A DNA stretch of 64,000 nucleotides from Vibrio cholerae. Its GTDB lineage: Bacteria; Actinomycetota; Actinomycetes; Actinomycetales; Micrococcaceae. A model generated the notes under the pieces. It ran no database searches. It was not told the origin of the DNA and was given only the letters and a program-made list of their open reading frames with translations. Within the stretch, counting starts at the first letter, position 1, and each line of letters begins with the position of its first letter. Both the position numbers and the translations under genes were made by a program. Where the stretch lies: contig WNZI01000007.1 of the NCBI GenBank assembly GCA_009728235.1, forward strand, positions 1 through 64,000, written 5' to 3'. Below, in pieces: positions 29,306 through 59,376 of the stretch.

Positions 29306-29587
29306 TTAGGCGCCGTCAGCCGCGCGTTCCGCCGTCTCCGCTCCGTCGACGACCACCGCACCCGACTGCAGCAGTGCCTTCAGGGCGTCGGCCCCCTCGG
29401 AAACCGCTGCCGCGGCCGCCAGGTTCGCCTCCGTGACAGCACGGAGGACCTCCTCACGCTGGATCTTCACCCCTCGCGGTGCATCGATACCGATGCGGAT
29501 GCCATCACCCCGGGAATCCAGCACCGTGATGACGATGTCGTCGCCGATGAGGATCTGCTCGCCGATCTTTCGCGTTAGAACAAGCAC
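29306..29587 (-). CDS. csrA: CsrA translational regulator
   Basis: A 93-residue RNA-binding protein. The canonical CsrA core MLVLTRKIGEQILIGDDIVITVLDSRGDGIRIGIDAPRGVKIQREEV is complete and includes the RNA-contacting N-terminal strand and the C-terminal RGVKIQREEV strand. An Ala-rich extension of about 35 residues follows, longer than in most CsrA. As the last gene of the flagellar operon, with fliW at the other end of the locus and GGA sites in the fliC leader, its likely target is flagellin mRNA. Confidence 0.93.
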   Translation of the reverse strand: MLVLTRKIGEQILIGDDIVITVLDSRGDGIRIGIDAPRGVKIQREEVLRAVTEANLAAAAAVSEGADALKALLQSGAVVVDGAETAERAADGA

Positions 29588-29596
29588 GGCTTCACC

Positions 29597-30667
29597 CTAT
29601 CCCCCCTGACCGGCTCGGCGTCGACCGGAAGGGCCGCGGCGCCGTTCGGAGGCGGTATCCCGGGCTCCGGGTGGTCGGCCCTCCTGCCAACCGACGGGCA
29701 GACCCAGCGACTCGACGGTCTCCGGTGTCGCCGTCGTCGACGAGCCCACGACGGCGAGGCCCGCCGGCGTCAGCCCGACTCGTTCCATGCTCCGGGTCAG
29801 GGCCCCCACCCACGCAGCCGTATCCGCTTCCTTGCGACCGGCGTCCACGGCGAGCCACACCTGGTCAGGGCTCAGTGCAAGCAGCAGCCGGGCATCCGCC
29901 ACTGCATCCTCGGTGTACAGCGCGAGGAAGACGGGGTGTCCGCCGTCCACCCCGGAGGCTCGGGCCGCATTGGCATCCAGGCGATCCTCGATCCTGATGG
30001 CATCCGGGGACACCCCGCTCGGCGGTCCCGACACCGCGACGGCTGCCGTCGCTCCCCCGCCAAGAACAGCCACCATCGACTGGACCACCTCCCAGACGAC
30101 TGCTGGTGCACCGACGACGATCACGAGGTCCCCTGGTGAGCGAAGGACGACAGGGGCCTGCGTCCGCTCCGGTGCTTCCACCACCCTGCCGGCGAGTCGT
30201 GGAACCGCCCCTGGGTCCGCCGGCCCCGAGGACGGCTCCGTAGCGAACGTCAGGTCGTCCATGAGTGCGGCGAAGAGCCCTGAATCGGTGGAGACGGCAA
30301 CCGCCGACCGATCCCCCGCCCGCCGTCCCTGCCCACCGCTCCCGGTCCCGGTCCCGGTCCCGGTGGTGGCCTGGCTCTCGGTGAGACGCACTTCGTCCAA
30401 CTCGGCCTGCTGCACCAGGGCGTCGATACCCGATGAAGGCGGAGAAACGCTGCGCCGCCCCCGTGGGCGGGCACCGGTGGGGTCATCGTCGTACTCGGGG
30501 ACCTCGACCACGATCTCGTAGTGTTTCCGCGCGAAGACGCCGCGTACTCCGCCCACCGTCACGAGTTCGGCGGACACGATGAGGGCACGCGAACCGTACA
30601 GCGCCGCGGCCTGCGCCTTCAGGTCCTCGAGGGAGGGGCCCTCAAGATGAAACAGCTGCGCTGGCAC
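29597..30667 (-). CDS. FlhF-like protein lacking a recognisable GTPase P-loop
   Basis: A 356-residue protein in the place flhF holds after flhA. The N-terminus (LEDLKAQAAALYGSRALIVSAELVTVGGVRGVFARKHYEIVVEVP) resembles the FlhF B domain. Where the SRP-type G1 loop is expected the sequence reads DLVIVVGAPAVVWEVVQSMV, without a GxxxxGK(T/S). The end (WVGALTRSMERVGLTPAGLAVVGSSTTATPETVESLGLPVGW) mimics the end of an NG domain. I infer a degenerate FlhF homologue that probably does not hydrolyse GTP; a distinct actinobacterial family is possible. It overlaps flhA by 26 bases. Confidence 0.6.
   Translation of the reverse strand: MPAQLFHLEGPSLEDLKAQAAALYGSRALIVSAELVTVGGVRGVFARKHYEIVVEVPEYDDDPTGARPRGRRSVSPPSSGIDALVQQAELDEVRLTESQATTGTGTGTGSGGQGRRAGDRSAVAVSTDSGLFAALMDDLTFATEPSSGPADPGAVPRLAGRVVEAPERTQAPVVLRSPGDLVIVVGAPAVVWEVVQSMVAVLGGGATAAVAVSGPPSGVSPDAIRIEDRLDANAARASGVDGGHPVFLALYTEDAVADARLLLALSPDQVWLAVDAGRKEADTAAWVGALTRSMERVGLTPAGLAVVGSSTTATPETVESLGLPVGWQEGRPPGARDTASERRRGPSGRRRAGQGG
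30341..30364. repeat. Hexanucleotide tandem repeat (CCCGGT)x4
   Basis: Four perfect copies inside the FlhF-like gene, encoding alternating Thr-Gly in a linker. Changes in copy number would stay in frame. Confidence 0.8.
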
Positions 30668-37942: not shown

Positions 37943-37969
37943 CTATCGGACGACGGCGTCGGAACGTTA
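37943..37969 (-). promoter_or_regulatory. Sigma-28-like promoter upstream of fliM
   Basis: Read on the minus strand: TAACGTTC (37962-37969), an 11-base spacer, TCCGATAG (37943-37950). This matches the FliA/SigD consensus TAAAGTTT-N11-GCCGATAA in spacing and at most positions. The expected start point falls 2-3 bases before the fliM GTG. Confidence 0.65.
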
Positions 37970-52612: not shown

Positions 52613-53434
52613 TTAGCGGAGGAGCTGAAGGACACCCTGGTTCATCTGGTTGGCCTGCGCGAGCATCGCGGTACCGGCCTGCGAGAGGATGTTCGAACGG
52701 GTGAAGTCCGCCATCTCCTTCGCCATGTCGGTGTCGGTGATGCGAGACTTGGCCGCCGAGAGGTTCTCCTGCGAGACGTTGATGCTGTTGATCGCGGACT
52801 CGAAGCGGTTCCGCACGGCACCGAGGGCGGAACGTGCCGTGGACACGTCCTTGATCTCAGCATCGATAGCAACAATGGTCGTCAATGCAGCAGCGGACGA
52901 ATCGAAGCTCAAGGCTTTGATATCCGCGCCAAGCGAGGCGATATCAGTCGCTGCAACGGTGATCTGATCCTCTGCCGCAACGCCTCCCGCGCCCACCTGG
53001 AAGTTCATTGCAGTGCCCTTGAGGAGCTTCTCGCCGTTGAAATTGGTTGACTCAGCAATGCGGGTCAGTTCATCGCCAAGCGCGTTGACCTCGGTCTTGA
53101 TGGCCGCACGTGCCTCGACATTGTTCGAGTCATTACCCGCCTGAACCGCGAGGTCGCGGACGCGCTGCAGGATGCTGTGGACCTCGGTCAGCGCACCTTC
53201 AGCGGTCTGGACCACGCTGATGCCGTCCTGGGCGTTGCGGGCTGCAACTCCCAGGCCGCCGATCTGCGAGCGCAGGCCCTCGGAGATCGCCAGGCCCGCG
53301 GCGTCGTCAGCCGCACGGTTGATGCGGAGACCGCTGGAGAGCTTCTCCAGCGACTTGGACATGTCGCCCTGCGTGCTGGAGAGGTTGCGGTATGCGGTGT
53401 TGGCCGCGGTGTTGGTGTTGATCTGGAAACCCAT
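52613..53434 (-). CDS. fliC: Flagellin
   Basis: A 273-residue flagellin, ATG 53434 with GGAGG eight bases upstream. The N-terminal D0/D1 motif GFQINTNTAANTAYRNLSSTQ...LEKLSSGLRINRAADDAAGLAISEGLRSQ and the C-terminal SRITDTDMAKEMADFTRSNILSQAGTAMLAQANQMNQGVLQLLR are both full. The central part is only about 70 residues, so surface domains D2/D3 are essentially absent; this is a minimal flagellin like Bacillus Hag. The leader carries two CsrA-type sites and a sigma-28-like promoter. Confidence 0.97.
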   Translation of the reverse strand: MGFQINTNTAANTAYRNLSSTQGDMSKSLEKLSSGLRINRAADDAAGLAISEGLRSQIGGLGVAARNAQDGISVVQTAEGALTEVHSILQRVRDLAVQAGNDSNNVEARAAIKTEVNALGDELTRIAESTNFNGEKLLKGTAMNFQVGAGGVAAEDQITVAATDIASLGADIKALSFDSSAAALTTIVAIDAEIKDVSTARSALGAVRNRFESAINSINVSQENLSAAKSRITDTDMAKEMADFTRSNILSQAGTAMLAQANQMNQGVLQLLR

Positions 53435-53442
53435 GATGTATT

Positions 53443-53486
53443 CCTCCGTGAAAGGGCTGCGTACGCCGGCCCATCCATGGGCCGGC
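53443..53486 (-). promoter_or_regulatory. Two CsrA-type binding sites in the fliC 5' leader
   Basis: On the mRNA, GCCGGCCC and GGGCCGGC (within 53465-53486) form a perfect 8-bp stem with hexaloop AUGGAU, which fits the CsrA core ANGGAN. Nineteen bases further the sequence UCACGGAGGA (ending at the Shine-Dalgarno GGAGG, 53443-53447) fits the RNA consensus (A/U)CANGGANG(U/A) at every position. One hairpin site plus one site on the ribosome binding site is the arrangement known for Bacillus subtilis hag. Binding itself is inferred. Confidence 0.75.
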
Positions 53487-53494
53487 AACCATAG

Positions 53495-53521
53495 CTATCG
53501 GAGCGCCGGCGGATGATGTTA
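53495..53521 (-). promoter_or_regulatory. Sigma-28-like promoter of fliC
   Basis: On the minus strand TAACATCA (53514-53521), 11-base spacer, TCCGATAG (53495-53502). Spacing is exactly that of FliA/SigD promoters and the -10 matches at CCGATA. The predicted start is about 54 bases upstream of the fliC ATG, leaving both CsrA sites in the transcript. Confidence 0.75.
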
Positions 53522-56170: not shown

Positions 56171-56197
56171 TTACATCACGGCATCCCATGCCGATAG
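56171..56197 (+). promoter_or_regulatory. Sigma-28-like promoter of flgN-flgK-flgL-fliW
   Basis: TTACATCA (56171-56178), 11 bases, GCCGATAG (56190-56197). It shares six of eight -35 bases and seven of eight -10 bases with the fliC site or consensus. The predicted start lies about 40 bases before the flgN GTG. Confidence 0.75.
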
Positions 56198-58132: not shown

Positions 58133-59008
58133 ATGATCACGCGCGTCACGAACCAGACCATGATGCAGGGTGCCCAGCGCTCCCTGCAGACCAACCTTGC
58201 GAGGCTTGCCGACCTCCAGGAGAAGGCGTCCAGCCAGAAGGCGATCACCCGACCTTCTGACGACCCGGCCGCCGCTGCCGAGTCCCTCCGCGTCCGTGCC
58301 GAGATCCGCGCCACCGAGCAGTACGGACGGAACATCTCGAACGGCGAGGGCTGGCTGGGACAGCTGGAGAACGCGATGGCGACGTCCAAGCGCGCGCTCG
58401 ACCGCGCGAACGACGCCACCCTGCAGGGCTCGAACTCGGCTCTGCCACCGGCAGCGCGGGAGGCACTCGCCCTGGACATCGAGTCCCTCCGCGCCGAGCT
58501 CGTGACCCAGGCGAACTCGACCTACGCAGGTCGATTCCTCTTCGCCGGCAACGCCGATGCCCCCGCCGCGCTCAGGCCCGACCTGACGTTCGAGGCGGGA
58601 GGAACGGTGGAGCGCCGCGTGGGCCCGGACCGGACGATCCGCGTGGACGCCGACGGCGGGGCCGTCTTCGGTACCGGCGACAGGTCGGCCTTCGCCCTCC
58701 TGGACACCATCGCCGCTGATCTGCGTGCCGGCAAGGACGTGTCCGTGCACCTGGCGCCACTCCAGCAGCGCATCCAGGACCTCACCGCCCACCACAGCGA
58801 GATCGGTACGCGCCATGCGCTGCTGCTCGGCGCGAAGGACGCCGTCGCCGACGCCTCGCTGGCCCTCGAAGGAGAACGCGCCGCCGTGGAAGACATCGAT
58901 CTCGCGTCGATCATCCTGGATCTCAAGCTGCAGGAGACCGCCTATCAGAGTGCCCTCGCAGTGTCCGCCCGGGTGCTTCAGCCCTCGCTGATGGACTTCC
59001 TGCGATGA
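58133..59008 (+). CDS. flgL: Hook-filament junction protein FlgL
   Basis: A 291-residue protein with ITRVTNQTMMQGAQRSLQTNLARLADLQEKASSQKAITRPSDDPAAAAESLRVRAEI at the start and LEGERAAVEDIDLASIILDLKLQETAYQSALAVSARVLQPSLMDFLR at the end, as in FlgL. An AGGAGAG site precedes the ATG. The stop overlaps the fliW start by 4 bases. Confidence 0.95.
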   Translation: MITRVTNQTMMQGAQRSLQTNLARLADLQEKASSQKAITRPSDDPAAAAESLRVRAEIRATEQYGRNISNGEGWLGQLENAMATSKRALDRANDATLQGSNSALPPAAREALALDIESLRAELVTQANSTYAGRFLFAGNADAPAALRPDLTFEAGGTVERRVGPDRTIRVDADGGAVFGTGDRSAFALLDTIAADLRAGKDVSVHLAPLQQRIQDLTAHHSEIGTRHALLLGAKDAVADASLALEGERAAVEDIDLASIILDLKLQETAYQSALAVSARVLQPSLMDFLR

Positions 59009-59376
59009 GGGCACAATTCGTCAATCCTCCCCCGGGCTTCGCGCCACTCACCGATTTCGACCTCGAGCAGGTGCAGGGTGCCGCCGGTCTCTTCACGCTC
59101 ACCGCGACTGCCGAACCGGACGTACGCCTGTTCCTCCTCGACGCCGCGACCTACGTGCCGGACTACAGCCCGCGATTCACCGACGCACAGCGCAACGCGC
59201 TCGGGGCGGATGTACCGGAAGCCGATCTGTTCGTCGTCGCCAACCCGGGACCAGGCGGCACCACCGTCAACCTGGCCGCGCCGATCGTCCGCGACCCGTC
59301 GACCGGACGCTGCGCGCAACTGATCCTCGAGGGGACGGACTATCCGCTCCGGGCAGCGCTGGCTCAGGCCGCCTGA
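59005..59376 (+). CDS. fliW: FliW, flagellin/CsrA-binding assembly factor
   Basis: A 123-residue protein with the FliW pattern: PGFAPLTDFDLEQVQGAAGLFTLTATAEPDVRLFLLDAATYVPDYSPRF and LFVVANPGPGGTTVNLAAPIVRDPSTGRCAQLIL. In Bacillus, FliW binds either flagellin or CsrA, which links flagellin export to translation. csrA is at the end of the main operon in this window. A strong terminator follows. Confidence 0.92.
   Translation: MRAQFVNPPPGFAPLTDFDLEQVQGAAGLFTLTATAEPDVRLFLLDAATYVPDYSPRFTDAQRNALGADVPEADLFVVANPGPGGTTVNLAAPIVRDPSTGRCAQLILEGTDYPLRAALAQAA

Follow-up and report, generated by a model that had tools for sequence, protein, structure and literature searches.

The window, by which we mean the whole 64,000-nucleotide stretch of DNA analysed here, carries on its minus strand the gene fliC (52613..53434), which codes for a 273-aa flagellin (Pfam PF00669 and PF00700) and has its ATG at 53434-53432. 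Read from 5′ to 3′, the fliC leader comprises a sigma-28-like promoter, TAAC-N15-TCCGATAG (53495..53521, minus strand), that has no mismatch to the pattern TAAC-N16-CCGATA, then an 8-bp hairpin, P1 (53465..53486, minus strand), in which the arms GCCGGCCC (53486-53479) and GGGCCGGC (53472-53465) enclose the loop AUGGAU (53473..53478), a match to ANGGAN, and finally the decamer UCACGGAGGA (53442..53451, minus strand), which covers the Shine-Dalgarno (SD) sequence and ends 7 bases before the ATG. The Rsm consensus reads A/U-CANGGAN-G-U/A, and UCACGGAGGA agrees with it at every position. Both the stem with its AUGGAU hexaloop and the decamer with its full consensus fit had been claimed in a preliminary description of this DNA, and both are present as claimed. 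P1 is the predicted first CsrA site, on the grounds of sequence, fold and covariation, and UCACGGAGGA is the predicted second, from its sequence and from comparative counts.

Across both strands of the window, P1 is the sole ANGGAN hexaloop closed by at least 6 perfect Watson-Crick pairs. Since shuffled windows also yielded 0.1-0.2 such hairpins on average (maximum 1-2, 20 shuffles), a single hairpin of this kind would be only slightly unexpected; it is the location before fliC and the conservation described below that exclude chance. The 76-nt leader folds at −31.8 kcal/mol (z = −2.38), a value equalled by 3 of 200 shuffles. At the gathering score, a search against Rfam returned a tRNA as its only match in the window and none in the leader, all leader matches (up to E 5) lying far below that score.

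The window also codes for a predicted CsrA and a predicted FliW. The csrA gene (29306..29587, minus strand; GTG start) codes for a 93-aa protein matching PF02599 (82.7 bits, cut-off 27), and fliW (59005..59376, plus strand) for a 123-aa protein matching PF02623 (65.7 bits, cut-off 25). With the more stringent NCBIfam equivalog models, CsrA falls just below two cut-offs (72 versus 73 and 68.4 versus 70.1 bits) and FliW far below its own (65.6 versus 165 bits). As previously described, fliW closes the flgN run: it follows flgN (PF05130), flgK and flgL and overlaps the end of the latter by 4 bases. The placement of csrA at the end of the main flagellar run needs a correction, as csrA does come after flhA (PF00771) but not directly behind it. 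A 356-aa open frame (29597-30667, minus strand) intervenes, for which no Pfam match was found at E 0.001 and whose N-terminus we take to resemble FlhF. The window CsrA carries R44, V51 and N55, and R44, V/I51 and N55 were present in all 20 CsrA proteins that we retrieved, six of them with I51 (residues of two of the 20 were read by eye after a one-residue shift). V51 and N55 have been reported to take part in FliW binding and R44 to be critical for RNA binding (PMC7829508; this and the other papers cited below are quoted from excerpts). The best-scoring solved chain for the window CsrA is 5dmb_D, and 5DMB is described as CsrA with a C-terminal extension (PMC7829508).

Conservation and covariation of the fliC leader

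We gathered leaders from named loci (best 80 of 555 candidates, csrA presence not being checked locus by locus), which judging by record titles we take to be mostly Micrococcales with a few others such as Nocardioides and Aeromicrobium, and from a family set in which 98 of 99 flagellin-positive genomes, out of 295 searched, provided a leader (G029 was left out). Of 182 leaders assembled, we excluded 2 from genomes lacking csrA as well as 15 duplicates and worked with the 165 distinct leaders that remained. A diversity filter retained 85, and 84 of them were aligned; L067 was omitted because an extra hairpin lengthens its leader.

An ANGGAN loop lies between pairing arms in 165/165 distinct leaders, a count to be read knowing that leader detection searched for ANGGAN as such. 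Of the first 7 arm positions, 4-7 are paired in every leader and 6 or 7 in 149 of them, and the closing pairs are CC/GG in 164/165. Across the 84 aligned leaders, the 8 P1 pairs are formed in 84.8% of the cells compared to 66.8±1.2% after shuffling, and the covariation score of P1 reaches 0.415 compared to 0.135±0.015 (0/500 shuffles as high), falling to 0.111 or less when the partner is slid. Of the five measures taken, two were less decisive: 6 pairs changed on both sides (5.1 in shuffles, 54/500) and 24 pair types (21.1 in shuffles, 24/500). The covariation shuffles ignore relatedness, and the structure tested was derived from the window leader; RNAalifold, run without a supplied structure, predicts 7 of the P1 pairs. 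At the third pair from the loop, the aligned leaders have C-G (57), U-A (10), G-C (6), A-U (2) or no pair (9). Thus the arms co-vary while the loop and closing pairs are fixed, which is what the preliminary description had proposed an alignment of related leaders might reveal.

The SD site is likewise conserved, reading TCACGGAGGA in 128/165 leaders, TCATGGAGGA in 17, CCACGGAGGA in 10 and otherwise in 10. Within the best 80 of the 555 candidate loci, CAN precedes GGAGG in 60/61 fliC genes detected by script versus 11/94 other open frames with GGAGG. The two GGA sites are separated by 28-35 nt in 155/165 leaders.

The leader omitted from the alignment belongs to a Microbacterium fliC (L067, 6879-6957). 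Downstream of P1 and upstream of the SD site it has a second GGA hairpin, with the pentaloop AGGAC, which may be a third CsrA site. The P1 hairpin and the SD site also occur in the leaders of additional or tandem flagellin genes (L117, L123, L160 and L161).

Beyond these relatives, a phylum set contained 54 fliC-positive genomes, 49 of which besides that of the window gave a leader (G313, G353, G422 and G482 were not included). One of them, L210, was dropped because there is no start codon at the match, so that 48 remained. A GGA-loop hairpin of at least 4 pairs was detected in 33/48 versus 17.8 expected from dinucleotide shuffles, 14 of them with P≤0.05, and several deep lineages have a short hairpin of the type GGC-AAGGAU-GCC together with CAAGGAGG or CAAGGAAG on the SD. 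The same detector found no GGA-loop hairpin in the other 15 of these 48 leaders, five of which belong to MRIN-type flagellins; in several of these genomes, e.g. G371, G341 and G387, csrA lies directly beside fliC.

Position of the hairpin relative to the promoter

A box of the form T[TA]AC-N14-16 with at least 6/8 matches to GCCGATAG was found in 149/165 leaders, and in all 149 the end of the −10 box lies 15-17 nt upstream of the loop, a coupling of promoter and hairpin that is newly seen here. The loop-to-ATG distance varies more, from 38 to 62 nt. The 16 leaders without a matching box include 8 from Microbacteriaceae, where the box looks different; the other 8 come from Demequina, Cellulomonas, Xylanimonas, Nocardioides, Aeromicrobium and uncultured Cellulomonadaceae. 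In P1, pairing stays above the independent expectation through roughly the eighth pair and is down to background at pair 9-10. Transcription from sigma-28 promoters starts 6-8 nt after the −10 box, and the transcript would therefore begin at the base of the stem. Because the −10 box sits at a fixed distance upstream, the fliC mRNA probably begins with the hairpin itself, with the start position deduced from the promoter.

Such a location would also suit a hairpin acting mainly as an mRNA-stability cap, on which CsrA stabilises or merely decorates the fliC mRNA and affects its translation little. This explanation draws on the fixed distance to the −10 box and on the fading of the pairing near the predicted transcript start. 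However, mere capping would explain neither why the loop keeps its GGA nor why a matching CA(N)GGA recurs on the SD sequence at near-constant spacing; we consider this reading unlikely, although it is the strongest of the alternatives.

Within the window, mismatch-free copies of TAAC-N16-CCGATA occur at two sites, before fliC and before fliM, and a copy with one mismatch precedes flgN; of these promoter copies, only that of fliC precedes an ANGGAN hairpin of at least 6 pairs. With up to 2 mismatches the pattern is not enriched in the window (15 versus 13.0 expected), and weight is given only to the mismatch-free matches and to the conserved position. The −10 of the fliM box (37944-37969, minus strand) ends some 8 nt upstream of the fliM GTG (37934), which suggests a leaderless fliM transcript. 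The flgN box lies at 56171-56196 (plus strand), with no ANGGAN hairpin of at least 6 pairs downstream. As for the cognate sigma factor, the best FliA/WhiG-like candidate of the genome (G000:C45:9626-10255, L002) scored 127.7 bits versus a cut-off of 189.6 and was rejected as a dedicated FliA; the flagellar sigma factor may be divergent.

A tentative helix at the start codon

In many leaders, a CCC just before the SD site can pair with AUGGG, i.e. the start codon and codon 2. In the window, the 5′ arm of this tentative helix, P2, would be AGCCC (53454..53458, minus strand) and its partner GGGUU (53432-53428). The CCC is present in 133/149 leaders whose codon 2 is GGN compared to 7/16 others (P = 5.9×10−5, Fisher's exact test, uncorrected for relatedness). 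In two leaders with a changed codon 2, strong new helices were found by the shuffle test (L065, AUG AGU, P = 0.013; L082, AUG GCU, P = 0.030); the helices of L092, L141 and L136 were weak (P = 0.15, 0.16 and 0.21, respectively). The same test revealed no significant helix in L131 (P = 0.97), in L018 and L132, or in ten further leaders with an alanine codon 2 (P = 0.26 to 0.98), nine of which are from genus g7 and one from g20. For the 149 GGN leaders taken together, the shuffle test gave a median P of 0.11, with P≤0.05 in 15%. P2 is absent from the minimum free energy fold of the window leader, and RNAalifold does not recover it from the aligned leaders. Because the swap and shuffle tests gave mixed results, P2 is kept only as a tentative, partially supported third element of the leader.

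We find it improbable, more so than a stability cap, that the primary switch is P2, acting for instance as a thermosensor or a ribosome gate, with CsrA in a secondary role. The association between CCC and codon 2 and the compensated helices of L065 and L082 speak for such a switch; the shuffle statistics, the leaders devoid of a significant helix and the two structure predictions speak against it.

The Microbacterium leaders L018, L019, L021, L027 and L043 have no CCC before the SD; in the L018 type, ACCC-UUAU-GGGU lies directly at the start codon in its place.

Co-occurrence of csrA, fliW and fliC

Among the 295 genomes of the family, 99 have fliC, 97 CsrA and 97 FliW, and 96 have all three. 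Only three have fliC without csrA: G029, which is 82% complete and contains fliC fragments and FliW, and G102 and G133, which belong to one genus and lack both csrA and fliW. A csrA remnant interrupted by a stop and scoring below the cut-off (23.8 bits) was found in G022, which has no fliC. In the order (149 genomes), fliC is present in 54 and csrA in 53, with both in 52, fliC only in 2 and csrA only in 1. In the phylum (396 genomes), csrA is present in 73 and fliC, at a threshold of E 1e-20, in 54, of which 53 also carry csrA; 20 genomes have csrA but no flagellin at that threshold. The co-occurrence of csrA and fliC suggests that csrA in Micrococcaceae may serve mainly fliC.

The CC-ANGGAN-GG form is gone from both csrA-less Micrococcaceae leaders (L115 and L116, of one genus). 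L115 is without any GGA hairpin, and L116 can form a CAGGAA hairpin with G-U pairs and has an SD reading CAAGGAGA. As a control for the loss of csrA, these two genomes of a single genus are only suggestive, and they are only partly useful because L116 keeps a GGA hairpin. G490 (leader L215) was given little weight as such a control, its flagellin being divergent and encoded on a contig of 4 kb.

A search for further copies was made in the genome of the window. With R1, a covariance model of the leader, fliC scored 80.7 bits and the best match elsewhere 20.2 bits (150 of 1726 candidates scored); three weak matches inspected by sequence gave no convincing leader. A whole-genome search for the pattern CC-ANGGAN-GG followed after 12-30 nt by CANGGAGG matched fliC and one other place, which was rejected as a leader since only 3/7 positions pair and it lies within a long open frame. 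Thus, neither the R1 model nor the full pattern search revealed a convincing second copy in this genome. The pattern alone is not specific, as its matches in 14 of 18 genomes include places away from fliC. That fliC may be the one CsrA target is a guess, because both searches would miss CsrA sites of other shapes.

Discussion

We interpret the fliC leader as a two-site CsrA operator, the actinobacterial member of the known CsrA-FliW-flagellin switch, and give this reading a probability of roughly 0.85. The preliminary description had proposed that the same homeostatic switch works in this actinobacterium, and the proposal gains support from the alignment of related leaders, the co-occurrence of csrA, fliW and fliC, the residues of CsrA, the lack of a second copy in the two genome searches and the fixed distance between promoter and hairpin. 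From the sequence we infer CsrA binding and repression, relief by FliW and the transcription start, in a sequence of events as follows. The sigma-28-type promoter would start the transcript at or just before the hairpin, whose ANGGAN loop would be a high-affinity CsrA site, with UCACGGAGGA, overlapping the SD sequence about 30 nt downstream, as the second. A CsrA dimer on both sites would block ribosome loading as long as cytoplasmic flagellin holds FliW. Once flagellin is exported, free FliW would bind CsrA near V51/N55, and CsrA so bound would let go, allowing fliC to be translated. It is hardly credible that the inverted repeat instead serves a transcription factor as a DNA operator or acts as an attenuator: the palindrome does lie immediately downstream of a promoter, but its outer arms change with compensation around a fixed loop, the opposite of what an operator would show, and P1 is not directly followed by a U run in the window, so that both the operator and the terminator readings were rejected.

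The switch has been worked out in Bacillus, Clostridioides and Campylobacter, and the nearest experimentally tested counterparts of the leader are those of B. subtilis hag (PMC6529632, PMC8523840) and C. jejuni flaA (PMC4894983). The hag leader has two CsrA sites, the second of which is on the SD sequence, and FliW relieves the repression by CsrA (PMC6529632, PMC8523840, PMC2587704); the sites are A51-A55 and C75-G82 (PMC8523840). Read from sequence, the DNA studied here has csrA, fliW and both kinds of site in common with B. subtilis; it differs from hag in that the hairpin is probably 5′-terminal and in that csrA and fliW belong to two separate gene runs. The 45-nt flaA leader forms a 5′ stem-loop, SL1, and a ribosome-site stem-loop, SL2, both with ANGGA, and its structure is supported by compensatory changes, with FliW acting as an antagonist (PMC4894983). 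SL2 was confirmed by probing, whereas its counterpart here, P2, is only partly supported, and the first stem here, unlike that of flaA, closes with CC/GG almost without exception. The probable 5′-terminal placement of the hairpin is the distinctive feature of the actinobacterial branch.

The preliminary description knew of no detailed account of such a switch in actinobacteria. This holds for the hairpin, as none of the open-licence papers listed in our searches was found to describe such a CsrA site in the flagellin leader of an actinobacterium, but not for the control itself: the 2008 genome paper of Kineococcus radiotolerans proposed CsrA control of flagellin via a BS2-like site overlapping the SD (9/12 bases), with csrA in a motility island (PMC2587704). 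The leader studied here shares with K. radiotolerans an actinobacterial csrA and an SD-overlapping site, and the excerpted proposal comes without a hairpin site, FliW or a comparison of leaders. Actinobacteria have also been listed among the phyla in which CsrA may be controlled through FliW (PMC4682653), and the excerpts of a survey of actinobacterial flagella name CsrA and FliW once, among the query proteins (PMC10746217).

A broader reading, which we put forward as possible but doubtful, is that in flagellated Actinomycetota the CsrA operator is fused to the flagellin promoter. Since the transcript would start with the CsrA hairpin, CsrA could bind as the RNA emerges; it would then govern both 5′-end stability and translation as a flagellin-dedicated rather than global regulator, with the start-codon helix as a third layer in many lineages.

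The two-site operator reading would extend the CsrA-FliW-flagellin switch to another phylum, in which we found no earlier test of it, and the leader offers a defined RNA element, open to searches and to mutation. Should csrA in Micrococcaceae mainly serve fliC, these bacteria would provide a clean system for studying the function of CsrA where it is not a global regulator.
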